Shown here: piece after piece, positions 34,026-56,842 of the stretch
Numbering within the stretch: the stretch's first letter is position 1
How the letters are laid out: each line of letters opens with the position of its first letter
Position numbers and translations under genes: made by a program
From: a virus
Reading direction: 5' to 3' (one strand)
IMG/VR virus record: IMGVR_UViG_3300020165_003419
Location: 34,300 to 98,299 of that record
Length of the DNA: 64,000 nucleotides
Notes under the pieces: generated by a model
Told to the model about the DNA's origin: nothing
Database searches by the model: none
Seen by the model: the letters and a program-made list of their open reading frames with translations, nothing else

Positions 34026-35269
34026 AAAATTTCAATCTGTGACAAATTACTAGCCCACTCTGTGTCTATCTCTAATCCGAGAGCCGACACAAATTTATCA
34101 TACATTTTTGATTGTTCGAATCTTTCATGAATCTCAGTTGCATACGTCTCTGCGGCTGCGACATGTCCAGCATTGTTTTGAATATCTTCATAACATTGTC
34201 TCATATTTTCTTTATAAGACTGTTCTCTTGCATTTGCCCAGCCTGACTCTTCTATTAGAACAGTTGGCCACACAACTTCTTTTGGAACTTTAGCTATGTC
34301 AAAGGCAACATTATAAAAATTCTCTCTACCGTTCTCATTGCACAAAAAGTCTAATTGTCCGGACCAACCAACACTTACGACTGGAAGTCCACTGTATGCT
34401 GCTTCAAAAATTGGCAACCCAAAACCCTCTCCATGAGGAATGGCGACAAAAGCGGACACTTTTTCGTGACTGTACAAGGAGTGCATCTCGGCATCTGACA
34501 TGTCTCCATGTAGTAAATAAATTTTACACTTCCGATCTTTAGGTAGATCTGCGAGTAGACCCTTTAATTGTCCTTCGCATCCTTCTCTGTCCATTAAGCA
34601 ATTTTTTGATAGATTGGTCTTCAATACCAAACCAACTTCGTCGTTGTGAAACTCGTCGACGAACCATCGAACCATGTTCTCAATATTTTTTCTTGGAGAC
34701 CATTGGGCTACTGCCAAGAAATTGGTATCGTATTCAAGCTCTAAATCAATTTCTGGTAACGACTCATAAACTTTAGCAGGATAATTGACTACTTCGATGT
34801 CAGTCTCAGTTTTAAGCCATCCCTCGGGGACCGTGTGATCGCCACCCTGTTGTACGTATTTTGTAAATTCCATCACATTCTTAGAATGGTTTGAGATTAC
34901 TATCACTTTATTCATTGCATTAATTGCGGCAATCCACTCACCAGAAATTAGAGTAGTCTCCATTCCAGCTGTATATCCAATATTAATGGGTGCGTAGCTT
35001 TTCCATTCATTTGGGATGGTGATTTGAAGAGATGCGTCATATGTACCGTTCTGTTGGCTGTGTGCAATCGTTTTTTCGATTAGGTGATCAATCCACATCT
35101 TTTCTTCATCGTACTCAGGTACCCATCCAGTTTGTCCCCATTTTAAGGGTTGTACATAGATGTCGAATGCGTCTTCTTGGCTGCGTAGGGCTCGGAGCGC
35201 ATATCTTGATTGTTCTCCGTAACCAGAGCGGGTTAAAATAGGTCCTACGACCAGTAATTTGGTTTTCAT
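34022..35269 (-). CDS. Glycosyltransferase family 4 protein
   Basis: 415 residues. N-terminus LLVVGPILTRSGYGEQSRY with the G-Y-G loop of GT4 acceptor domains; C-terminal donor domain with AQWSPRKNIENMVRWF, FVAIPHGEGFGLPIFEAAYS and LPVVSVGWSGQLDFL. The E-G-F-G-L-P-x-x-E-A motif is the GT4 donor-phosphate signature (E-x7-E). It is paired with a second GT4 gene two bases upstream. Donor sugar unknown. Confidence 0.85.
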   Translation of the reverse strand: MKTKLLVVGPILTRSGYGEQSRYALRALRSQEDAFDIYVQPLKWGQTGWVPEYDEEKMWIDHLIEKTIAHSQQNGTYDASLQITIPNEWKSYAPINIGYTAGMETTLISGEWIAAINAMNKVIVISNHSKNVMEFTKYVQQGGDHTVPEGWLKTETDIEVVNYPAKVYESLPEIDLELEYDTNFLAVAQWSPRKNIENMVRWFVDEFHNDEVGLVLKTNLSKNCLMDREGCEGQLKGLLADLPKDRKCKIYLLHGDMSDAEMHSLYSHEKVSAFVAIPHGEGFGLPIFEAAYSGLPVVSVGWSGQLDFLCNENGRENFYNVAFDIAKVPKEVVWPTVLIEESGWANAREQSYKENMRQCYEDIQNNAGHVAAAETYATEIHERFEQSKMYDKFVSALGLEIDTEWASNLSQIEIL

Positions 35270-41874: not shown

Positions 41875-42372
41875 CTATCTACCAGAACTTTGTGGTGTGT
41901 TGCGGTTCGGCGGGAGTTCAAAGTCTCTGCCTTTTTTAGTTAACTCGGAAGAACTTTGTAGTTTTTCTTCTCCACCAACGCCCCATAATAATTCTACACC
42001 GATTTCTTCGCATACAGCTTGTTCGGGAGTATTGGCTTTTCCTCGATCACCACCATTCGCAAAGAAGGTTGGTTTTAATCTTCGAATAGCTTCACACACG
42101 GTACCATCGGAGTCGTCCACTGAGTCCACTAAGATAACACCTTTAATAGCGTTTAAGATTTCGACGCGGCGCTCCCATTCCATAAAAACAAAACCTTTTT
42201 TACGAAACAACCAATCATCTGAGTTAGCTATTATTATTACATCTCCATATTGTGCGGCATGTCTTATCATTCGAATATGTCCAGCATGCACAGGATCAAA
42301 GCCGCCTGAGACCATTACGGTTGGGTTCGTCCCATCGTTGTTTTTCTTCCACATATCTCTATGTACAGTCAT
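41875..42372 (-). CDS. Cytidylyltransferase-like nucleotidyltransferase
   Basis: 165 residues. VMVSGGFDPVHAGHIRMIRHA near residue 20 has the G-x-F-D-x-x-H-x-G-H signature, and IIIANSDDWLFRKKG and EWERRVEIL follow the cytidylyltransferase pattern of HldE domain II/TagD. It is distinct from the HldC-like gene at 32 kb and not in the sugar cassette. Substrate unknown; possibly a sugar- or alcohol-phosphate, or a nicotinamide nucleotide. The C-terminus is a polar tail (PPNRNTPQSSGR). Confidence 0.65.
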   Translation of the reverse strand: MTVHRDMWKKNNDGTNPTVMVSGGFDPVHAGHIRMIRHAAQYGDVIIIANSDDWLFRKKGFVFMEWERRVEILNAIKGVILVDSVDDSDGTVCEAIRRLKPTFFANGGDRGKANTPEQAVCEEIGVELLWGVGGEEKLQSSSELTKKGRDFELPPNRNTPQSSGR

Positions 42373-44313: not shown

Positions 44314-44610
44314 GTGGAATTTTTATATATTACGCTAGGCGTATGTCTAAGTATTTTAGTTTATTTCGTTTACAAATTTATTGTTTTCCAAAAAAAACAA
44401 ATAGTTGCCAAAGATATGCTAGAGCAGTGTATGCTTGACGAAATTCAACAAACAAGAGAAGAATATCAAAGACGACGATTATCTGAAATACGTGATTCAA
44501 GAAAGAAAACAAACGTTTTTCGTAAAATGGCTATCGACGAGATAGCAAAGCAAAAACTAGTTTATGATGAAGAGTCTGGCTGTTACGTCAGAAGGCGCCA
44601 GATTAATTAA
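44314..44610 (+). CDS. Small plus-strand membrane protein with coiled-coil tail
   Basis: 98 residues from GTG 44314, chosen because GGAGGG (44302-44307) stands six bases upstream; the ATG at 44287 lies before that site. An N-terminal transmembrane segment (FLYITLGVCLSILVYFVYKF) is followed by a long charged helix (LEQCMLDEIQQTREEY). It is the only convincing plus-strand gene in the window and converges on the IscU gene, with overlapping stop codons. Its role is unknown; the shape (one helix anchor plus coiled coil) would fit an inner-membrane accessory or lysis-linked protein. Confidence 0.55.
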   Translation: MEFLYITLGVCLSILVYFVYKFIVFQKKQIVAKDMLEQCMLDEIQQTREEYQRRRLSEIRDSRKKTNVFRKMAIDEIAKQKLVYDEESGCYVRRRQIN

Positions 44611-44987
44611 GAATTTTTGTTTTTATAATCTTTTATCGCTGCTCGGATTGCATCTTCGGCCAAAACTGAACAGTGTATCTTCACCGGTGGTAACGATAGT
44701 TCTTTTGCTATATCTGCATTAGATATATCTTGGGCTTCCTCAATATTTAAACCCTTTACCATTGTTGTAATTAAAGAACTTGAGGCAATTGCAGATCCAC
44801 ACCCAAAAGTTTTGAATTTTGCATCCTCAATGACACCGTTATCATTTATTTTTAATTGAAGCCTCATGACGTCTCCACATGCTGGCGCTCCAACAGTGCC
44901 TGTTCCAACACTTGAATCATTTTTATCTAATGAACCCACATTTTGTGGATTCTCGAAATGATCAACAACTTTATCTGAATAACTCAT
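44607..44987 (-). CDS. iscU: IscU-like Fe-S cluster scaffold
   Basis: 126 residues with all key IscU residues at E. coli positions: Cys37 and Asp39 in VGAPACGDVM, Cys63 in TFGCGSAIASSS, the HscA-binding motif L-P-P-V-K at 99-103, His105 and Cys106. The N-terminal YSDKVVDHFENPQNVG is also diagnostic. IscU assembles 2Fe-2S and 4Fe-4S clusters with IscS and hands them over through HscA/HscB. The intact LPPVK motif suggests it uses the host chaperones. It lies just downstream of the tmRNA and no IscS is seen in the window. Confidence 0.95.
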   Translation of the reverse strand: MSYSDKVVDHFENPQNVGSLDKNDSSVGTGTVGAPACGDVMRLQLKINDNGVIEDAKFKTFGCGSAIASSSLITTMVKGLNIEEAQDISNADIAKELSLPPVKIHCSVLAEDAIRAAIKDYKNKNS

Positions 44988-45991: not shown

Positions 45992-46774
45992 TTACAATTC
46001 GATGGACATGTCGGCTTCTTCACCGCCGCCAACTGCGTCATCACCGCTATCTACCGCATCATCGTATGCCTGATTTGATGGTTCTTCCACAGAACCAGAA
46101 AGCTCATCTTCAAATTTATTGAAGTATAGTTTAAGATTAGCAATCAAATAATCATAGAACAATTCTTGATCTTCAGGATCCGAAAGAAGTTCATATGAAT
46201 CAATGATTGCAGTTTCAATTTTCTTAAACGATTGGTATGCCATATTACGACCGGTTTGATCACCATCTACACCAGATCCAAATTCTTCTTTTTCATCAGG
46301 CGCATCATCTTCCTCGGCGGCTTTCTTTTCGGCATCCGTACGAATATCAATAAACTTATCATCAACACCGTCAGCATCATCGACTACATCTATATCTACT
46401 TCGTTTAACTCAGCATCATCTGGGTCAGCCGCGTTGTTAGCAATTGCTGGTGTGAGAGTTTTGACTACAGCGTTAACAATATGCGCACGAAATGATTGTC
46501 TCTGTGTTTCGTTAGTAGTAAGAGATTTGAAATCTGTCTCAAGAACAGGTACTATCTTTTTGAGTAGTTCTTCAAGAACATTGATTCCAGTTGACTTATT
46601 TGGTGTTGGGCTTACGTCTGGGGTTGAAACCTCTGATAGCATTTTTTTGAGTTCTAGCTCAGCTAATTTAACAATGCTCTTTTCGAATAAAACTTTTGTA
46701 CTTGTTTTTTTCTGCTTGACAAAGCGGATTAAATCACGTATATTAGATCTAAGTGTTTTCTCTTCTTGGTTCAT
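45992..46774 (-). CDS. Acidic head- or core-like protein, unknown function
   Basis: 260 residues. A basic, helical N-terminus (RSNIRDLIRFVKQKKTSTKV) and a very acidic middle (DPDDAELNEVDIDVVDDADG; AEEDDAPDEKEE) with a C-terminal helical domain (LFYDYLIANLKLYFNKFEDEL) and acidic tail. Such charge patterns are common in scaffold or core proteins. It follows the ligase-like gene with a 4-base overlap, starting the block of virion-type genes. No motif supports a specific function. Confidence 0.5.
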   Translation of the reverse strand: MNQEEKTLRSNIRDLIRFVKQKKTSTKVLFEKSIVKLAELELKKMLSEVSTPDVSPTPNKSTGINVLEELLKKIVPVLETDFKSLTTNETQRQSFRAHIVNAVVKTLTPAIANNAADPDDAELNEVDIDVVDDADGVDDKFIDIRTDAEKKAAEEDDAPDEKEEFGSGVDGDQTGRNMAYQSFKKIETAIIDSYELLSDPEDQELFYDYLIANLKLYFNKFEDELSGSVEEPSNQAYDDAVDSGDDAVGGGEEADMSIEL

Positions 46775-48741
46775 CTTAATATGCCTCTTTCCATAATTAG
46801 TCTCATCACCTCATCAACGGTGACTAAATTAGTGTTTTCTCTTGTAACGAGCTTACTTCGTTGTTTTTCTGCTTCGTTATCATCTTCTATTTCTTTTTTA
46901 TTGCCCCAGGGTCCTCCCTTAGCACCAACTGCAGCACCGCCGGCTGCTCCCGCACCGGACATTTCTTGCATCGGCGAGGCTATTCCAAGTATAGAAAGCA
47001 AATCAAATACATTGTCTTCACCAATAAAGTCTTCTAATTCCTCAATGGCATCCTCGCTAGTTTCTGCAGCGCCCAATAATTCTCTCATGTCTGACGCGCT
47101 GTATGGAACTCCATTGGGTCTCAAAGAAGGCTTAACTGCAGTAGCAAAGGGATCCATCAATTTAACACCCTCTTTAATGTACTTTTCTGCTCCCGCCCAT
47201 CGACCGGCGTCTCCACCCTTGTTGCTGGCTCCTAATATTACCTTAGTCCCCTCTTCCAAGGGACCATCACGTCCAACATATTCGTATGCTGCGGTTAATG
47301 GCGAAGCATGGTTAGAGATACCTACCTCTACATTCGGCAGGTCTTGGGTTAGAAGGTTCCATATCTTTAGAGAATCTTCAGCAGTAATTTCACGTCCGTT
47401 CGGTAATTTTCGACCTCCACGTGTCGGCCGCGAAATTAAAACAATAACTTCATCAGCCATTTCTGCATATTTCCGCACCATATCTAGGTGCCCGTTGTGA
47501 GGTGGCTTAAAAGCTCCCGGAACAACAGCAATCGTTTTGCCAAAATCAGCATCGACGACCGGATCATCATCTTCGTCTTCTTCTGTCACAGGCTTAAATT
47601 CATAGCCAATGAAGTCTTCTTCATTTTCAGTTACACTTCCACCAAATCCACCACCAAGATTTCCTAAGATGAATTCTCCGGTAATTTTAACAGGGTTTGG
47701 TCCAAATTTTTCTTCATCCCTAAGCACTACCCCCTCGTGACTCATCAAGTCGCCCATGGGGCTTGTGAGACCCCTTAAAACGTCGTTCCCGAGCATACGA
47801 GTGGCATGCATAAAGAGGGCACCGTTGATAGCACGTTCTGCGTCAGCTTGGTCGACCAAACTAACTACCGGCACGCCATCGACTGCAAGTGCTTTATACA
47901 GTTCTTTGTGAAGAGGGTGTCGTGTTACCATCTTATCTCCGACTCGAACTTTTAAAGAATCGTAATCTGGATTCTGCGCACTGGAAAGCCAATCGGCAAG
48001 CGATTTAGTAATCTCCCGGTCGTCAGATATTTTAATTGTCAATGGTTCCGATAACGTACTACTAAAATCAATATCTGTGTCTTCTGTGCGGGTAGTTGGT
48101 ACGGAGCCATAAACCTTAAATCCTAATTCGGCTGCTATCGGATTCAACTTCTCTATAAGGGTTTCCATGATTTCTGGATCATAAGTAACTTCTCGACTGG
48201 GCGCTTTGATTCCATCTGGTCTCTCGGCTCCCGGTCTTACATTCCCTTTACTTGCGCCGGACTTTGCGACTTTTTCATAAAATTGGTTTAGTCCGTGAAT
48301 AGCTAAAAAGTTTTCATCGTAATCAGTAACATTCGTTGTACCTGTAACGTATTCAGTATTAAGGAACATCGATGGGTTATCCCACATTCCAAGTTCTTGT
48401 AATTGTGGCTTAATTGCCGGCAGCGCTTTATTTAGGATAGCTAGAAGTGTCTTAATAGCCGGTCGCATACCGTGACCTTCAGGAAATCTTTGGTCGACTC
48501 TTGACATTGTAATTCCGCTGATGTCAATTTCTTTTGACGACCCGCGGTCAACAGCAAATTGACGTTGTCCGTCAGTCTCAACAACTTTAAACGAAACGTT
48601 AACTCCATCGATTTTAACAGCACCAGCACCTTCTGTTTCAAGATGATCTTTGGCTTTGTTAAAAAAGTCGAGAAGGTCGTTACCTGTTCTTACAGAGCCC
48701 AAATCAAAAGGATGGGCCATATGTCCGGCAGCACCGCCCAT
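46771..48741 (-). CDS. Ligase-like nucleotidyltransferase fused to HxGH nucleotidyltransferase
   Basis: 656 residues in two modules. The N-terminal module has the motifs of DNA/RNA ligases: AVKIDGVNVSF (motif I, K43-x-D-G), SMFLNTEYVTG (motif III-like), SHEGVVLRDEE (motif IV, about residue 330) and PVKITGEF (motif V). The C-terminal module (from about residue 400) has VVPGAFKPPHNGHLDMVRKY, the H-x-G-H adenylyl/cytidylyltransferase signature, followed by VIVLISRPTRGGRK and PYSASDMREL. It ends with an Ala/Gly-rich linker and a short basic helix (EVMRLIMERGILR). The pairing suggests an enzyme that both activates and repairs or modifies a nucleic acid or cofactor; which is unknown. Confidence 0.75.
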   Translation of the reverse strand: MGGAAGHMAHPFDLGSVRTGNDLLDFFNKAKDHLETEGAGAVKIDGVNVSFKVVETDGQRQFAVDRGSSKEIDISGITMSRVDQRFPEGHGMRPAIKTLLAILNKALPAIKPQLQELGMWDNPSMFLNTEYVTGTTNVTDYDENFLAIHGLNQFYEKVAKSGASKGNVRPGAERPDGIKAPSREVTYDPEIMETLIEKLNPIAAELGFKVYGSVPTTRTEDTDIDFSSTLSEPLTIKISDDREITKSLADWLSSAQNPDYDSLKVRVGDKMVTRHPLHKELYKALAVDGVPVVSLVDQADAERAINGALFMHATRMLGNDVLRGLTSPMGDLMSHEGVVLRDEEKFGPNPVKITGEFILGNLGGGFGGSVTENEEDFIGYEFKPVTEEDEDDDPVVDADFGKTIAVVPGAFKPPHNGHLDMVRKYAEMADEVIVLISRPTRGGRKLPNGREITAEDSLKIWNLLTQDLPNVEVGISNHASPLTAAYEYVGRDGPLEEGTKVILGASNKGGDAGRWAGAEKYIKEGVKLMDPFATAVKPSLRPNGVPYSASDMRELLGAAETSEDAIEELEDFIGEDNVFDLLSILGIASPMQEMSGAGAAGGAAVGAKGGPWGNKKEIEDDNEAEKQRSKLVTRENTNLVTVDEVMRLIMERGILR

Positions 48742-48744
48742 AAT

Positions 48745-49839
48745 CTATCCCTTTGTTTTTAATGCGTACGCAATAATTTCCTTAAGGCGCACCTCGGAAA
48801 GATCAGACTTATGTTGGTCCATATCACGCTTACCAGGGAAGTCCTCTTCAACAACCTCTTCATCTTCTTCGTCTTCTTCGTCTAAACGACGTCCAGATGC
48901 ATCACGCCCAGCAACTCGATCGGCACGATCGGTTTTGGACTGTTCATCAACGGTTTCATCAGCGTCATCTGCTGCATCTTCCATTGATTCACCCTTATTG
49001 CCATCTTTATCGAGATCTAAAAAGTCTGGCTTTTCGCCTTCTTCTAACTCTTCATCATCATGATCGCGCTTAGCAGGGTGCCCATCGTGACCTTCGGCAA
49101 GCGAAGCATCTGTAATTTGGATATCCTCAACCGCGACATTTTCTAAGATTGTTCCATCTTTAAGTTTCATGTCATAGTGAGTAACCTTACCAAGCTTTTC
49201 GCTCCAGTTGTGAGAGATTGCTTCAGCCATTTGAGTACCACCATTGTGGCTTACACCGCCGTGGTGAACACAATAATGGTTAGGGGCAAATGCGCCTGCC
49301 TCTTCATTAATATTTTCTTCTACGCTTTCATTAAGCTTACTGAGGTCCATTTTAAAACCCCAGTTCTCTGAAAGGAGACTTTTCAACTCTCCGTTCTTCC
49401 AATCTTTTGTTGACATGTTAGTGTCTCCTTTTTGTAAATGTTCAAAATAAATAGTATTGTTTTGCTTTAAAGTGTCTTCAAAATCACGAAGACACATGCT
49501 GCCATCGCGATTAGCTTCAATTTCCATTTGTCGTAAGTGCGGATCTTTTTGGGCATATCCTTCTCCCATTTCACCAACATCATCAAATTTGCCTTCGCAA
49601 TTTTGTTTATGATGCACTAATTCATGGCCAAGAGAACGCAAAATATCTTTTGGATGACGGTTAGTCGTATACAGAGTCACGGCTTTTTCTTGTGGGTCAT
49701 AGTAAGCAGTTTTTCCTAATGGGTTCGCTGCATTTTTTGAATCTTGTTTTAAAAATAGCCGCGGCGGATTCTTGAACCCTATCTTTTCTTGCGCAAACGG
49801 CATAAACTGAAGAATTAGGTTTTTTAGGACGTCATTCAC
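48745..49839 (-). CDS. Metallopeptidase-like acidic protein with strong internal start
   Basis: 364 residues. The N-terminal third has an H-E-x-x-H motif in RSLGHELVHHKQNCEG (about residue 72-77) with a distal E (EIEANRDG), typical of a zinc metallopeptidase. The C-terminal half is acidic (DEEDEEDEEVVEED) with a D-x-D-x-D-G segment and ends EVRLKEIIAYALKTKG, as scaffold/core proteins often do. A second start at ATG 49416 follows AAGGAG by eight bases and would yield a 223-residue product starting MSTKDWKNGELKSLLSENWG. Two products from one frame are therefore likely, as for some phage head proteins. Confidence 0.6.
   Translation of the reverse strand: MNDVLKNLILQFMPFAQEKIGFKNPPRLFLKQDSKNAANPLGKTAYYDPQEKAVTLYTTNRHPKDILRSLGHELVHHKQNCEGKFDDVGEMGEGYAQKDPHLRQMEIEANRDGSMCLRDFEDTLKQNNTIYFEHLQKGDTNMSTKDWKNGELKSLLSENWGFKMDLSKLNESVEENINEEAGAFAPNHYCVHHGGVSHNGGTQMAEAISHNWSEKLGKVTHYDMKLKDGTILENVAVEDIQITDASLAEGHDGHPAKRDHDDEELEEGEKPDFLDLDKDGNKGESMEDAADDADETVDEQSKTDRADRVAGRDASGRRLDEEDEEDEEVVEEDFPGKRDMDQHKSDLSEVRLKEIIAYALKTKG
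49416..49431 (-). promoter_or_regulatory. Strong internal ribosome-binding site and start
   Basis: AAGGAG on the minus strand, eight bases before the in-frame ATG at 49416, inside the 364-residue gene. It is stronger than the site at the gene's own start, suggesting a separate C-terminal product of 223 residues. Confidence 0.6.
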
Positions 49840-50173
49840 TTAAAAATACCTCTTTCTGGTCGTCAGAGTACCAAATATACTCTAAATAGTTACCAAATGG
49901 GTCTTTGACGTAAACTCCTACTGTACCGTCCCGATGTTTTACAACTATTCCTTTGTCAATAGGTAAATCTTCTTTATTTTTTACTAAAATACCGATATGC
50001 GCATGGGGATAATAATTTTTATCAATTAAGGCAATATTTGTGTTTTTTATTTGTATTCTAATATACTTTTTATCTTTGTGGGTTGTTATTCCAGATAAAT
50101 GTTCCAAATACCACTTTTCTGCTGCATCCAAGTCATCTACCAGAATAGCTATATGGTCAACTAGCGATTTCAT
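49832..50173 (-). CDS. VOC-family (glyoxalase/dioxygenase fold) protein
   Basis: 113 residues. VDHIAILVDDLDAAEKWYLE is the start of a vicinal-oxygen-chelate module with the first metal His; HAHIGILVKN and VKDPFGNYLEYIWY supply the later strand and metal Glu. Function ranges from glyoxalase to fosfomycin-resistance and dioxygenase enzymes; substrate not evident. It overlaps the metallopeptidase gene by 8 bases. Confidence 0.7.
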   Translation of the reverse strand: MKSLVDHIAILVDDLDAAEKWYLEHLSGITTHKDKKYIRIQIKNTNIALIDKNYYPHAHIGILVKNKEDLPIDKGIVVKHRDGTVGVYVKDPFGNYLEYIWYSDDQKEVFLSE

Positions 50174-51429: not shown

Positions 51430-51996
51430 TTAAGTGATGTCATCCGCATACTTTACTTTTCTTGCTCTAATTTTTATATCGGGATACTGTTCTGATAATG
51501 CACTCACTGCTTCCACATTCTTTCCGGAATCATCAAAAAATAAAACGTCTGTGGCACCTGCATCAATCCTATCGGATATCCACGCTGCTTTATCTGCAGG
51601 GTCGGAACTACCTAAAAGTTCAAATGTAATCATAGATGTGTCAAGTCCAATACTCTCAAGATACTCTCTAATAGGACCTTCGGCCGCTGGATCTCTCGCC
51701 GTTAGAACGGCTATCTCCCTGCCTTCAGTGCCAGCGTTAAGAGCATTACGAATAATGTTAGTAATTTGTTTTATTTCTCTCGGATTGATAACATTATCAA
51801 ATTCAGAAAAGTCATACTCGTATCCTGGGTTCATTTTATGGTTCGCATATTCGTCGGTGGTCATTTCAATTCTTTCACCGGTGTCAGTTGTAATATGAAT
51901 ATTGGAATCAGACTTTGCGATTGTGTCATCAAAGTCAAACACACGCAGCTTTGATTCAGTTAAATACTTTCGCCAATTTTCAAGTAGGAGTTTCAT
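51430..51996 (-). CDS. HAD-superfamily phosphatase with 14-residue leader
   Basis: 188 residues. The first 14 residues (MKLLLENWRKYLTE) are shared with three other genes nearby and end in L-T-E. The HAD core follows at once: LRVFDFDDTIAKS (D-x-D-D-T nucleophile), IAVLTARDP (motif II) and VLFFDDSGKNVEAV (acidic motif). Removal of the leader after E14 would leave a mature phosphatase. It may dephosphorylate a nucleotide or the 5'/3' ends of nucleic acids. Together with the kinase gene at 53-54 kb it could form a packaged effector set. Confidence 0.75.
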   Translation of the reverse strand: MKLLLENWRKYLTESKLRVFDFDDTIAKSDSNIHITTDTGERIEMTTDEYANHKMNPGYEYDFSEFDNVINPREIKQITNIIRNALNAGTEGREIAVLTARDPAAEGPIREYLESIGLDTSMITFELLGSSDPADKAAWISDRIDAGATDVLFFDDSGKNVEAVSALSEQYPDIKIRARKVKYADDIT

Positions 51997-52448
51997 TATG
52001 AATTTCCATCAAGAGTAGAAGTTATTGCGCTAAGAGCTTCACTATCATTCATACGATGATCACTGCCAACACTAATTAGTTTAGCTCCGTACATCTTCGA
52101 TAATAAACGACTATCACCATATGGTATAACATCATCCTGGCGAGAGTGTAATATCGTTGCTCCGGGCGGTATTGGGCACGTTGGGCAATATTTCTTCCAA
52201 GCCGGCGCAATAAGGACCATCTTACCGAGAGGTAGCTGCGCCGCCATGGCAACTGCACCCCCTCGTGAAGAGCCTACGACTGCATCCGGTAAGTGTTCTT
52301 CGTATGCATCTTTAGCTGCATCAACACTCCCTTGCCAATCGTCTCTTGAAAGCCGGGGCTCAATAACCTCATGCCCTGCCGCAGCAAGTGCTTTGGGTTT
52401 TGAGCCACCAGGCTTTGATTCTAATCCGTGGAGAAACAAAACTTTCAT
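51996..52448 (-). CDS. Small alpha/beta hydrolase (YqiA-like esterase)
   Basis: 150 residues. VLFLHGLESKPGGSK (oxyanion region), AVVGSSRGGAVAMAA with the nucleophile Ser in G-S-S-R-G, ILHSRQDDVIP with the Asp, and VGSDHRMND with the His form a complete triad. Size and motifs match YqiA-type esterases. Unlike its neighbours it lacks the shared leader. It overlaps them by one and four bases. Confidence 0.75.
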   Translation of the reverse strand: MKVLFLHGLESKPGGSKPKALAAAGHEVIEPRLSRDDWQGSVDAAKDAYEEHLPDAVVGSSRGGAVAMAAQLPLGKMVLIAPAWKKYCPTCPIPPGATILHSRQDDVIPYGDSRLLSKMYGAKLISVGSDHRMNDSEALSAITSTLDGNS

Positions 52449-53071
52449 TTAGGGTTTCCGAGCATAATTTTTAATACATCTTTATTGCCAGCAATTTCTC
52501 TAGTATACCACCCGTTGATGCCTGGATATTTACCTTCGGGGTGTTCCCCTAACCAATTTATAGGCTTACCGGTTCCAAGAATTGACTGTACTTTTTCAGA
52601 ATCTTCGACAGCCGGCACATTATAATATTTTAACATAATATGCGCAATAGATTTAGACATTTCTGCGTAGTGTCCCGATTGGGATAACAATTCGGCAGTT
52701 TTATTAATGTAAGCATCCTTGCCGGCTTTAGAGCCATCATGCCCAGCCACTGAGAGTTTGGTTCCTGCGGACTTACGTTTTCCCCCGCGTAAAGCGTCGG
52801 GTTCGGGGTCGTCATCAAGATCAACAGCTACCCAGACATCTTCGTCCCCAGGTAACTGTCCTGAGTTTTTATAATCATAGTTCCCGCCGATGGGTGCGTA
52901 TGCAGTCTGTATCAGATCAAACAATTGATCTGAGAGATCAACATTCAATGGATCTCTTGATGCTTTGATGTCGGCTGGGTCTATCTCGGTCCACTGACCT
53001 TTGTCAGTATCCAGATCTTCCCATTTTTTTTCATTTAAATACTCTCGCCAATTTTCAAGTAAGAGTTTCAT
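52445..53071 (-). CDS. Leader-bearing protein of unknown function
   Basis: 208 residues. Begins with the shared leader (MKLLLENWREYLNE), followed by acidic KKWEDLDTDKGQW and a soluble domain with WVAVDLDDDPEPDAL, SVAGHDGSKAGKDAY and a helix-rich C-terminus ending REIAGNKDVLKIMLGNPK. A GNAT-like or nucleotide-binding fold is possible but I cannot assign one. Directly follows the kinase gene (one-base overlap). Confidence 0.6.
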   Translation of the reverse strand: MKLLLENWREYLNEKKWEDLDTDKGQWTEIDPADIKASRDPLNVDLSDQLFDLIQTAYAPIGGNYDYKNSGQLPGDEDVWVAVDLDDDPEPDALRGGKRKSAGTKLSVAGHDGSKAGKDAYINKTAELLSQSGHYAEMSKSIAHIMLKYYNVPAVEDSEKVQSILGTGKPINWLGEHPEGKYPGINGWYTREIAGNKDVLKIMLGNPK

Positions 53072-54096
53072 TATATGCTCCTCAAACTAAATAGCCCAAG
53101 ATCGGTTATAACAAAATTCTTGGTACCGGGTCGAACCATGACGTTTCCAGAATGAATATCTTTGGGTTGCCAGTTTTGTTGATCGAGAAAATGCTTCATT
53201 GCTCGCATCAAACCTTCGGCTTCAGGAAAGTTTCTCTCAACTTTCTCTCCAGCTTTGCCGGCAGCACTAACTCTACCGTGTCCACCGTGAACAGGCACAA
53301 TTTGTTTTTGAAGAATGTCTGTGTAAATCTCGCTAAGTTCTCTTTTAAAATACTTAGGCAACTGCTCATAGAATGAGGAATCTTGTTCTAAATAAGGAAG
53401 AGAAGCCTCTGCCACCAAATCAGATAACGTCTCCGCTGGTAAAAATTCCCAGTTGTGTCCGGACATTTCTGTTATCTTTTTCATCACAATGTTTGGTACT
53501 TCCTGCATAATATCTTGATAAACGTTTGGGTCACCTTGTCTCAACATAAGGTTTCCATACAAACCTTGTATGATAACTTCATAGATTGCTTCAGGATCTT
53601 TAAATAATCTAGTATATTTTTCGTGTCTTGACAAATCTGCATCATCTGAATTCAGAGCAAACAAGTCTGCTTTAACTCTATCGGGAATGTCTTCTAAGAG
53701 TTCCATAAATATAAAATAATCTTTTGTAGTCTCTTCTACATTATACACGTCTGGAAGGTATTTTGCAAATTTTTGATTCATCGAGGCTTTGTTATCCATA
53801 GCAAAGCGATAGTTTTGCGCTTCTCTGTCTGCCGTATCAGGACCTCCATAGAGTCTTTTTACAACATGCTTCATTGCATTGCGTTCACCAGTCTTTTTAT
53901 TCTCGACCAAATAAACTTCTCCCATCATACCCTTACCTAATTTGCGGTCAAAGTAAAATCCAGCATCTTCGGCGCCTTGCTTAGCACGAACTTTTTTATC
54001 TACTTCTACTTGATTCCAAGATTTGCCATCCATATCCATGGTGGCTTCTTCATCTTCGTTTACAAATTTTCGCCAATTTTCAAGTAGGAGTTTCAT
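53071..54096 (-). CDS. Protein kinase-like protein with 14-residue leader
   Basis: 341 residues. After the shared leader (MKLLLENWRKFVNE), residues about 40-330 show a Ser/Thr kinase fold: the P-loop FDRKLGKGMMGEVYLVE, the ATP-binding Lys in AMKHV, the catalytic loop PKDIHSGNVMV (Asp and Asn), and the metal motif ITDLGLF in place of D-F-G. The sequence is intact in these positions. Phage kinases are known to rewire host metabolism; T4 injects its Alt enzyme with a similar leader. Phosphorylation of host proteins after injection is an inference. Confidence 0.75.
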   Translation of the reverse strand: MKLLLENWRKFVNEDEEATMDMDGKSWNQVEVDKKVRAKQGAEDAGFYFDRKLGKGMMGEVYLVENKKTGERNAMKHVVKRLYGGPDTADREAQNYRFAMDNKASMNQKFAKYLPDVYNVEETTKDYFIFMELLEDIPDRVKADLFALNSDDADLSRHEKYTRLFKDPEAIYEVIIQGLYGNLMLRQGDPNVYQDIMQEVPNIVMKKITEMSGHNWEFLPAETLSDLVAEASLPYLEQDSSFYEQLPKYFKRELSEIYTDILQKQIVPVHGGHGRVSAAGKAGEKVERNFPEAEGLMRAMKHFLDQQNWQPKDIHSGNVMVRPGTKNFVITDLGLFSLRSI

Positions 54097-54425
54097 TAAA
54101 ATTGTATTCCCTCTTCTCGATACAGCGACGCTTCAATAATATTTAGAACTGTTTTAAGAACAGTTTTATCAGAAGCTAACTCTGGGCTTTCGAAAATGCC
54201 TTCATTTTCAGCATTATAAACATTCAGTTCGTCTGCTAAACCTTGGACATTTTTTATGCCCATTTTATATAAGTGAGAAGGGATATACATATTACTAGGT
54301 GTATGTGTGACAACATAGTGAGTTTTACCTTTGATTTTATTATTGCGTTTAGTGACATGAAAAGGCTCAATAGCACTTTTGTCTTCACCCAAATACCGGT
54401 GCCAATTTTCTATTAAAAGTTTCAT
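54096..54425 (-). CDS. Small leader-bearing protein, unknown function
   Basis: 109 residues. The shared leader is the most divergent copy (MKLLIENWHRYLGE). The mature part has a basic, beta-rich start (FHVTKRNNKIKGKTHYVVTH) and a helical C-terminus (LGLADELNVYNAENEGIF, approximately). No family recognised. It overlaps both neighbours by one to four bases. Confidence 0.55.
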   Translation of the reverse strand: MKLLIENWHRYLGEDKSAIEPFHVTKRNNKIKGKTHYVVTHTPSNMYIPSHLYKMGIKNVQGLADELNVYNAENEGIFESPELASDKTVLKTVLNIIEASLYREEGIQF

Positions 54426-56842
54426 GATATAAATCTTCTCCAGTTTCCTACAAGCTGTTCATTGACATCGTCAGTCCACGTCCCGGACATGTTTTGCGCT
54501 TGAATTTGAGCGAGAGTCTTATTAAATATAACCGTGAGATTATCTTCATCATCCATTTCACCGGTTACTAATTCTTTAAAAAGTTCTACACGTTCGGCAT
54601 TATCGTCTGCGTCGACTTTAAACTGTATTTGTACAACTCTCTCTTCACCACTTCTAGTAACAGTATAATGAGAAATATCTAAATGATATTCTGTTCCAAC
54701 TTCTTGTCTTGGGGCAGCTAACATATTCTGTCTTAGAAGCAGTTTAAACTCGCGAGAATCTAAAAGCCTCTCTAGTATCTGCGGAGACATTTTCCATTCC
54801 CCTGAGTCGTACTCAAAGCTCACAGAGGCATATGATTCATAGCTATCCTCATACTCTCCATCAGTTTCCACGTCCCACTCATAAGAATCTATATCTCCGT
54901 TCTCAATATCCATAGCGAGAGTCATATATTCGCCACCGACCATTTGACCTTCGCGCTTGAAGTATGTTGACAAAATTTCTTTCCACGCATCATGACGGTC
55001 ATCGATTAAAGAGTCAATTTTTTGACAAGCATCCGCGAACTCCTCTACTAGAGCATAATAAGATTGCCCGCCCAACTCTGGGTGTTCTAGATTTACGCCG
55101 CATGTCCAAAAGATGGTGTCGCCTTGACGACCCACGTAAGCTCGATCAGTAAAAAAATCTCCATATATATCGTTAATCGCATCTGGAGAATATTGAACAA
55201 CCCCGTCGATCGCGGTTGGTAGCCTACTCCAATCACTCACGTTCCACTCGATCACAACTTCGGCCGCACCCCTAATATACACGTCTTCTCCACCGTCATC
55301 TTCGACGTCAAAGCTAATTTTTGTAACAGCCGCACGTTGGTTCCAAGTATCAATAATCTCTTGACACTGATTTTCGTATGATGTTCTGATGTCTCCGATT
55401 AAGTCTGCGTCCAAATCATCTTCGGTTTCTGTGTTCTGCTTCATATTGCCGCTAACACGTTGTTCTATCCCTAACAATTGTCTCATTAGTGCTTCACGAC
55501 CCGATGCATTGGCGGTGTCCTCGTAGGAGCCACCAAAGATCATAAATCTATCTAAATTAATCTTGCCGTTTTCTTGTGGCATGTTTGCGATGACTTCTTC
55601 TTGGTTATCACGAGACCAGTCAGTAACTCTATCGACTAAACCGGGAATATCAGCACCGTATACTCGTTTCTCAGGCATCCCAACGTCTTGTCCGTCATCC
55701 CAGCGCTCCGGTTCATCTGTGTCATAATATCTAACATGACGAATGCGCGCCCGAGAAATTGGATTGATTTCACCAACATCATAGCGCTGATCATCATAAA
55801 AGATTTCACCTTCTTGAATTTCTTGCTCTGCGCTGTCTATATTACCCGTATTTGTGGTGCTCAGAAGCTCTTCTGTTTCCACAACATACGCAACCGCCCC
55901 GTGACCCCGGGCTTCTGCTACAGCACATTTATAATAGGACTGATAGGCGTTTGTACGGCTAGACGGAGAGTGGCAAGAGGTAATTTTGTCAAAATCACTC
56001 ATTCTGAGCACATCTATCGGATGTCGAGTAATAATAATGGAAAATTTGTCATTATCGATGTTATTTATCTCTTTTTTGATGAATGCAGCGTTCTTTTGCC
56101 AATACTCGCCGTATTTTGTTGCTAATTCGGTTAAATCATAGCCAGCGGGTCCTGCAACGCCCGGATTTACGATATATAAGTACATTTGATCGTTAATTCT
56201 GTTTAAATTCTCCAATTCTTTCTCATCGAGTGCAGCATTACGCATTTTCACTGTAACTTCGTGCCACTTGGCGATTGGTTGACCATTTGGACCTTTATAT
56301 CCAATACCAGCCAAGTAATCATAGACTTTTTGGTACAATGCGTCCTTTTTTCTGCTTAAATCGGCTATTTTTTTGAATAATTTGCCGATTTTCATCTGAA
56401 TCTTCTTAGTTTTCTTCTTTGGTTCCGGGTCACCAACCAACATACCCAGTAAATCGTCTGATGTGCGCAGATCACGCTCAGCAAAGACCATGCCCTTGTC
56501 CCAATCTACATCATACTCTTGAGATTCGAAGAATTTTGCAAACTTTCCAAGCTCTGTAGCTGGATCAAGGGTTGGAAACGGTATCACCGCGCGCATTTTG
56601 CCACCAAAAAGGTCATTTAAAGGCAGATTTGCTGGGTCGAGGTCATCTAATACATCTTCCAACACTCTCATCTCGTCTTCAGTGACTTCTCGGAGTACTT
56701 TTTCGTTAACAGGTACACAATTAGGTACATTTCTGTCACCTTTTTTCTTCATTCCCTTTTGCGTATAGCCATCCCAACATTTTTCTTGTAAAACATTAAG
56801 CAACGCGGTGGTTTTAGCTAAAATTTGTTCATCACTTAACAT
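54422..56842 (-). CDS. Large conserved-looking protein, virion or DNA-processing candidate
   Basis: 806 residues. The N-terminus has a Cys-containing motif (CWDGYTQKGMKKKGDRNVPN then CVPVNE) that is repeated in some phage structural and giant-virus proteins. The middle holds a basic stretch (KKKTKKIQMKIGKLFKKIAD) and the striking ITRHPIDVLRMSDFDKITSC-H-S segment followed by YYKCAVAEARGHGAVAYVV, with clusters of His, Asp and Cys that could be an active site. The C-terminal third is acidic and beta-rich, ending LVGNWRRFIS. No fold is recognised. It is coupled by overlap to the small leader gene and to the Cys-rich gene. Confidence 0.55.
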   Translation of the reverse strand: MLSDEQILAKTTALLNVLQEKCWDGYTQKGMKKKGDRNVPNCVPVNEKVLREVTEDEMRVLEDVLDDLDPANLPLNDLFGGKMRAVIPFPTLDPATELGKFAKFFESQEYDVDWDKGMVFAERDLRTSDDLLGMLVGDPEPKKKTKKIQMKIGKLFKKIADLSRKKDALYQKVYDYLAGIGYKGPNGQPIAKWHEVTVKMRNAALDEKELENLNRINDQMYLYIVNPGVAGPAGYDLTELATKYGEYWQKNAAFIKKEINNIDNDKFSIIITRHPIDVLRMSDFDKITSCHSPSSRTNAYQSYYKCAVAEARGHGAVAYVVETEELLSTTNTGNIDSAEQEIQEGEIFYDDQRYDVGEINPISRARIRHVRYYDTDEPERWDDGQDVGMPEKRVYGADIPGLVDRVTDWSRDNQEEVIANMPQENGKINLDRFMIFGGSYEDTANASGREALMRQLLGIEQRVSGNMKQNTETEDDLDADLIGDIRTSYENQCQEIIDTWNQRAAVTKISFDVEDDGGEDVYIRGAAEVVIEWNVSDWSRLPTAIDGVVQYSPDAINDIYGDFFTDRAYVGRQGDTIFWTCGVNLEHPELGGQSYYALVEEFADACQKIDSLIDDRHDAWKEILSTYFKREGQMVGGEYMTLAMDIENGDIDSYEWDVETDGEYEDSYESYASVSFEYDSGEWKMSPQILERLLDSREFKLLLRQNMLAAPRQEVGTEYHLDISHYTVTRSGEERVVQIQFKVDADDNAERVELFKELVTGEMDDEDNLTVIFNKTLAQIQAQNMSGTWTDDVNEQLVGNWRRFIS

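Follow-up and report, generated by a model that had tools for sequence, protein, structure and literature searches.

Why should a virus join a ligase-like domain to a HIGH nucleotidyltransferase in one polypeptide? The question is raised by an open reading frame (ORF 46771-48741) in the window, as we call the whole 64,000-nt stretch analysed, which covers positions 34,300 to 98,299 of a 98,299-base IMG/VR record (IMGVR_UViG_3300020165_003419) of a marine virus of bacteria. An in-frame stop lies two codons ahead of the ATG, so the start of this ORF is fixed. A sequence-only reading had proposed that the ORF fuses a ligase-like domain to a HIGH nucleotidyltransferase and that the fusion hints at a coupled two-step reaction. 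The fusion proved to be real and recurrent, being present in dozens of independent contigs. On sequence grounds, the product is an N-terminal covalent-nucleotidyltransferase/RNA-ligase-like domain followed by a C-terminal HIGH nucleotidyltransferase, an assignment backed by motif invariance and predicted fold, with weak matches in the PDB. The genomic setting of the ORF is weightier than the fusion itself. The features of the locus are collected in Table 1.

Table 1 Features of the locus, in window coordinates (arrows mark predicted cuts)
Feature	Coordinates	Strand	Basis or remark
Fused ligase-like/HIGH ORF, 656 aa	46771..48741	-	ligase-like domain, acidic linker, HIGH nucleotidyltransferase, C-terminal tail
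Type-A RNA-ligase-like domain, about residues 1-360, begins M-GGAAGHMAHPFDL	47662..48741	-	alignments, AlphaFold2, Foldseek
Motif I, K43-I-D-G46, predicted nucleotidyl-lysine	48604..48615	-	K43, D45, G46 invariant
Motif Ia, D65-R66	48544..48549	-	invariant
Motif III glutamate E130 (FLNTEYV)	48352..48354	-	invariant
Motif IV, E336-G-V-V-L-R341	47719..47736	-	E336, G337 invariant
Motif V, V351-K352-I-T-G355, single lysine	47677..47691	-	K352, T354, G355 invariant
HIGH-superfamily nucleotidyltransferase domain, about residues 402-560	47062..47538	-	Pfam, NCBIfam, PHROG and PDB matches; alignment
HIGH signature H415-N-G-H418	47488..47499	-	H415, G417, H418 invariant
Conserved [LIVM]xE-[MTIV]-S site, M591-Q-E-M-S595	46957..46971	-	glutamate conserved, alignment of 28 relatives
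Conserved helix-like C-terminal tail (ENxDLSxVDEVMRLIMERGI)	46774..46845	-	alignment of 28 relatives
Zincin-like HExxH protein, upstream partner	48745..49839	-	63/63 related loci with room, among the matches listed
Downstream partner (MNQEEKTLR...)	45992..46774	-	75/75 related loci with room, among the matches listed
HAD-like protein with leader MKLLLENWRKYLTE↓	51430..51996	-	
Protein with leader MKLLLENWREYLNE↓	52445..53071	-	
Protein-kinase-like protein with leader MKLLLENWRKFVNE↓	53071..54096	-	
Small protein with leader MKLLIENWHRYLGE↓	54096..54425	-	

The window's version of the ligase-like domain, here called type A, was examined in two alignments of 20 relatives each, with identity down to about 38-40%, the second set being the more diverse. 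The motifs picked out in the sequence-only reading (K43-I-D-G, E336-G-V-V-L-R and V351-K-I-T-G, in that order) stood up, with their key residues invariant in 20 relatives, which shows that they are not there by chance, and two motifs missing from its list, Ia (D65-R66) and III (E130), are also present. The order I, Ia, III, IV, V is that of covalent nucleotidyltransferases. Besides the residues marked as invariant in Table 1, N48 and H149 are invariant in these alignments. The K-x-K that covalent nucleotidyltransferases have in motif V was not found, as VKITG keeps only K352 and has T at the second lysine.

The confident AlphaFold2 model of the window's ligase-like half (pLDDT 86.5) shows residues 364-400 as disordered, so the two halves would be joined by a flexible acidic linker. 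When this model was compared with the PDB using Foldseek, 11 of the 11 top matches were RNA ligases, including archaeal Rnl, T4 Rnl1 and RNA editing ligase, at E 0.03-0.1 and TM below 0.3. Among viral models, its own family came first, followed by the DUF6267-HIGH protein of phage S-PM2 (E 8e-5) and viral RNA/DNA ligases. At the sequence level, the first 400 residues matched no Pfam or PHROG family, Pfam RNA_ligase being the best weak match of the ligase-like half (E 0.024-0.15); sequence-profile searches of the ligase-like halves against the PDB matched no solved RNA ligase, and hhalign of type A against T4 Rnl2 alone gave no match. Type A resembles T4 Rnl1, T4 Rnl2 and the archaeal Rnl3-type enzymes in motif order and nearest predicted fold, but differs from them in the lack of a significant sequence match, the single motif V lysine, the fusion to a HIGH domain and the stretch of about 185 residues between motifs IIIa and IV. 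Taken together, alignments and model make type A a well supported but not proven member of the ligase superfamily. A Pol-beta reading of GS...DIDF (residues 213-226) was rejected because this stretch, inspected by eye, is not conserved in the family.

The G-A-F-K-P-P-H-N-G-H signature, also recognised in the sequence-only reading, lies at residues 409-418, and the C-terminal half scored above the curated cut-off of Pfam CTP_transf_like (PF01467, E 1.3e-5) and above that of TIGR00125 (E 5.8e-9). The second HIGH-family motif (consensus S[AG][TS]xxR) reads S-A-S-D-M-R in the window protein. This half is a HIGH nucleotidyltransferase, CoaD/NMNAT-like in kind. Behind it, M591-Q-E-M-S595 is a possible C-terminal prohead-protease site, and sites of this type were not seen in other ORFs. 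A role of the C-terminal tail as a targeting peptide common to several proteins found no support, as no such tail was present in other ORFs of the window or the related loci. A second, separate HIGH nucleotidyltransferase is encoded in the window at 41875-42372 (-), near the heptose-1-phosphate adenylyltransferase PHROG 7878 (E 8e-19).

A search with the fused protein returned at least 80 contigs with the same HIGH domain, ahead of which stood type A, type B (GHMAHLSED...TEKVDGQN) or type C, the last being DUF6267 by Pfam (E about 1e-95 in L001 and L002). Counts here and below are of distinct sequences among the best 80 matches per scan rather than across all phages, and related sequences are not independent events. 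No Pfam match to DUF6267 (PF19782) was found in the window protein. By hhalign, type B is a relative of type A (probability 98.7%, E 2e-16), type C is only faintly similar to either of them (profile E 5e-4, probability 31%), and common to all three are the motif I lysine, an E-G in motif IV and the lysine of motif V. Whatever the ligase type, every related locus with room, among the matches listed, has the zincin-like gene upstream (63/63) and a 260-aa gene downstream (75/75). With three versions standing between constant flanks, ligase-like halves have evidently replaced one another at this position, and A, B and C therefore seem to do the same job.

More than a hundred T4-like phage records contain relatives of DUF6267 (PF19782, PHROG 455), a family of T4-like cyanophages and pelagiphages that is named in no paper of the literature searched. 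DUF6267 is like the window's type A in position, with the same HIGH domain behind it and the same genes on either side, and in having H(M/L)xH and K-x-D-G...EG...K, and the fold comparison links the two through the S-PM2 protein; it differs in its weak profile similarity and in motif III, which is Q-G-D (D instead of E). Foldseek of a DUF6267 model ranked T4 Rnl1 first, a result not taken as proof because of its E of 0.13 and the mediocre model (pLDDT 76.6). The S-PM2 fusion is annotated as two ORFs, p141 and p142, with a 28-base gap in NC_006820 (L006 6001-7780), and another S-PM2 record gives a 591-aa protein (UniProt A0A0M6VVW4).

Other ARRANGEMENTS were type A alone, before HIGH, after HIGH (permuted) and in polyproteins of the form HIGH-zincin-...-ligase. 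In Microcystis phage Mel-JY01, HIGH precedes a type-B domain; DUF6267 and HIGH are neighbouring or fused in cyanophages, a pelagiphage, a methylophage and a Stenotrophomonas phage; and in Flavobacterium phage immuto, gp088 fuses HIGH to a zincin of the type encoded upstream of the window gene. The same gp088 (L185 6261-8984) has a Pol-beta-like motif (GS...DLDI) N-terminal to HIGH and zincin, recalling the RNA-ligase-associated RlaP family. A bacterial origin of the family was rejected, as 84,980 species genomes gave 5 matches, all on MAG contigs. Type-A-like relatives (L271, L273) lie on contigs of 400 kb that had been placed in Firmicutes and Erysipelotrichaceae MAGs; these bins may contain huge phages.

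The earlier suggestion of a coupled two-step reaction is not borne out by these arrangements: three very different ligase-like domains are joined to the same HIGH domain, the domain order is reversible, the halves also occur as separate genes, and a probable protease site lies between them in the reversed form. What the comparison does show is that ligase-like and HIGH activities occur as a pair, accompanied in most lineages by head-targeting signals.

Near the window gene, four ORFs (51430-54425, -) start with MKLL(L/I)ENW...xE. The leader MKLLLENW[RK]xYLxE stands at the start of no fewer than 67 distinct ORFs whose functions are unrelated (window, L001-L091 and L178-L183), including HAD, kinase-like and ART-like proteins and one with a HAD_SAK RNA-repair match; it ends in [LIVMF]xE in 67/67 distinct ORFs among the matches listed, and a leader-bearing ORF directly precedes the S77 protease gene in L179. 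We consider this to be likely the head-targeting leader of the window's lineage, in which case the window gene would adjoin a cargo cluster. Of the leader-bearing ORFs, L052 440-940 weakly matched ART-PolyVal (E 1.7e-4) and L061 371-1177 weakly matched HAD_SAK_1 of RNA repair proteins (E 6.8e-4). The window also encodes a glyoxalase-like small protein (49832-50173, -) with the zincin gene on one side and the cargo-like genes on the other, a phage tmRNA (45000-45336, -; tag ANNNNHFESVRLAA) adjoining a NifU-like gene (44607-44987), and an 806-aa protein (54422-56842, -) whose residues 12-57 match short segments of many PHROGs of unknown function (9737, 4359, 727 and others) and are perhaps another shared terminal peptide.

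In T4, gp21 cleaves after L/I-x-E, and leader residues 4, 7, 8 and 10 matter for targeting and processing (PMC9026906). T4 IPII and IPIII start with MKTYQEFIAE↓A and IPI with MKTFKEFTSTTTPVSTITE↓A. In type-A proteins, the residue upstream of GGxxGHMxHPF is E in 57/60 distinct sequences among the matches listed, preceded so as to give [LIVM]xE in 56/60 and [LI]xE in 50/60. This E↓GG junction is found behind short leaders and HIGH domains alike. The type-A leaders MITFAQFLLE↓GG and MTTFKEFYQLISE↓GG resemble those of T4 IPII/IPIII and IPI. The (L/I/V)-x-E↓GG junction is of the T4 prohead-protease site type, and cleavage is predicted there. For DUF6267, [LI]xE stands just ahead of the domain in 55/59 distinct leaders among the matches listed, and the HIGH genes adjoining DUF6267 genes also carry leaders close to the T4 capsid-targeting sequence (CTS). 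As background, with ORFs called by a first-ATG rule, a CTS-like pattern was present in 21/461 other ORFs of DUF6267 loci, of which 5 were DUF6267 variants by eye, and in 1/48 annotated genes of an S-SCSM1 stretch, namely the HIGH gene. The S77 protease is encoded in 17/17 of the related contigs above 103 kb that were tested and is absent from the window's own 98-kb fragment.

HIGH proteins have been detected by mass spectrometry in CsCl-purified virions of cyanophages S-SZBM1, S-SCSM1 and S-CREM2, with the authors of the latter two doubting whether they were cargo rather than contamination (PMC9146016, PMC9602691, PMC10665884). A T4-type leader stands at the N-terminus of each of these proteins (3/3): MRFRQFIIE↓A, MKSFLQFLKE↓A and MKNFSSFLTE↓A. 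These virion proteins, annotated as NMNAT/cytidylyltransferase, have a HIGH domain, a CTS leader and, in several phages, a DUF6267 neighbour, but they are stand-alone HIGH proteins, and the mass spectrometry covers these cyanophage relatives, not the window protein. The S-CREM2 virion proteins gp155, gp156 and gp160 have no clear leader, so a leader is not the sole route into the virion.

The explanation that we put first, with belief and doubt about evenly divided, is that the window protein is a bifunctional enzyme of a family of head-packaged, injected cargo serving early RNA repair and/or NAD/nucleotide metabolism. Its ligase-like half would load a nucleotide on Lys43. T4-like phages would load the family's enzymes into the prohead via a capsid-targeting leader, the gp21/S77 prohead protease would trim them at (L/I)-x-E↓, and the trimmed enzymes would be injected into the cell together with the phage DNA, where, early in infection, RNA cut by host nucleases would be resealed and NAD or another dinucleotide restored. 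Injection by such viruses is probable, as T4-type targeting and cleavage sequences are present in relatives. RNA repair would be the most economical role for a promptly delivered RNA-ligase-like enzyme, and NAD/nucleotide metabolism for a CoaD/NMNAT-like HIGH enzyme; a leader-bearing neighbour that matches HAD_SAK_1 is a hint of RNA repair. What is read from sequence comprises the domains and their invariant motifs, the permutation, the swapping in place, the sequences of leaders and junctions and the presence of the protease gene; the occurrence of HIGH relatives in virions was shown by others; and we infer catalysis, substrates, cleavage and injection, as well as packaging of the leaderless copy in the window.

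That copy starts with M-GGAAGHM, which leaves no room for a leader, and an N-terminal CTS ending in (L/I)-x-E was not found in it, so its packaging can only be surmised; it may perhaps proceed through the conserved C-terminal tail and the [LIVM]xE-[MTIV]-S site. The leaderless start could also mean that head targeting was lost and that in the window lineage the enzyme pair works inside the infected cell only, an alternative that we rate as rather unlikely. It would fit the finding that none of the 32 M-GG members among the matches listed has an N-terminal leader, and that the DUF6267 protein adjoining HIGH in S-SZBM1, likewise without a leader, is missing from the virion list. Against it, a C-terminal targeting signal is possible, given that T4 Alt and gp21 undergo C-terminal cleavage (PMC9026906); moreover, the window gene lies near genes with the MKLLLENW...xE leader, and relatives with identical flanks encode the S77 protease.

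In the NAD-linked variant of the sequence-only reading, the HIGH half might make NAD from NMN and ATP, with the ligase half using or recycling the NAD. NAD-dependent adenylation releases NMN, HIGH relatives annotated as NMNAT occur in cyanophage virions, and the domain scores with both NadR/NadM and CoaD models. However, CoaD outscores NadR/NadM and all remain under their curated cut-offs, those of the NMN adenylyltransferase families not being reached (nadR_NMN_Atrans, 20.5 bits against 341; PRK01153, 22.2 against 127), no NMN-binding domain of NAD-dependent ligases was recognised, and the three ligase versions and the reversed order speak against tight coupling, which makes this NAD-linked scheme improbable. 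We find it a little harder still to believe that the ligase-like half is a structural or attachment factor rather than an enzyme. A precedent is T4 gp63, which also acts in tail-fibre attachment; type B has a weak match (E 0.0018) to PHROG 562, "RNA ligase and tail fiber protein attachment catalyst", and DUF6267 has D instead of E in motif III, with a single lysine in motif V. But types A, B and C all have, without variation, the motif I lysine, the EG of motif IV and the lysine of motif V, which a purely structural role would not require. Finally, cleavage of these proteins is predicted from sequence and [LIV]-x-E-GG might be a fold feature of the domain's first turn, but this is very improbable, since 32 members among the matches listed begin directly with M-GG, so that LxE is dispensable for the type-A domain, (L/I)xE also stands ahead of unrelated domains (DUF6267, then DK/SK; HIGH, then AR/A), and 67/67 of the MKLLLENW leaders listed, on unrelated proteins, end in [LIVMF]xE.

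The favoured explanation, that of head-packaged and injected cargo, has its closest parallel in T4 IPI/IPII/IPIII and Alt, which share the N-terminal leader of 10-15 residues with aromatics near positions 4 and 7 and an (L/I)-x-E end, the S77 (gp21) protease in the genome and a cargo of unrelated enzymes. Unlike these internal head proteins, the cargo here is a ligase-like/HIGH enzyme, often a multi-domain polyprotein with an internal site, and the window copy has no leader. Earlier surveys have treated phage RNA repair, NAD synthesis and head-packaged polyvalent proteins (including Iyer et al. 2017, PMC5512222), and sugar-nucleotide synthesis has been proposed in this literature for some cyanophage HIGH enzymes; the portions of these surveys that we consulted do not describe the ligase-like and HIGH pair. 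Polyvalent proteins, as presented in the consulted part of Iyer et al. (PMC5512222), are likewise multi-domain and head-packaged, often with zincin and ART domains, and no ligase-HIGH combination is described there; zincins were proposed for their processing, whereas we propose the prohead protease.

More broadly, and more tentatively, with confidence somewhat short of even, T4-like phages across the ocean may possess an unrecognised class of injected polyproteins cut by the prohead protease, by which RNA would be repaired and NAD restored before phage expression. Its members would combine RNA-ligase-like domains (including DUF6267), HIGH nucleotidyltransferases and zincin modules; T4-type leaders would load them into the capsid, (L/I)xE↓GG cuts inside the prohead would separate the parts, and the window protein would be a leaderless member. 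This supplies a testable function for DUF6267, and a head-targeting leader would explain the recurrent "NMNAT/cytidylyltransferase" of cyanophage virions. The MKLLLENW leader offers a likely way to list injected cargo, and short leader peptides could predict the injected cargo of uncultured phages. Taken together, the findings suggest that when marine T4-like phages infect a cell, nucleotidyl-transfer enzymes arrive with them ready-made.
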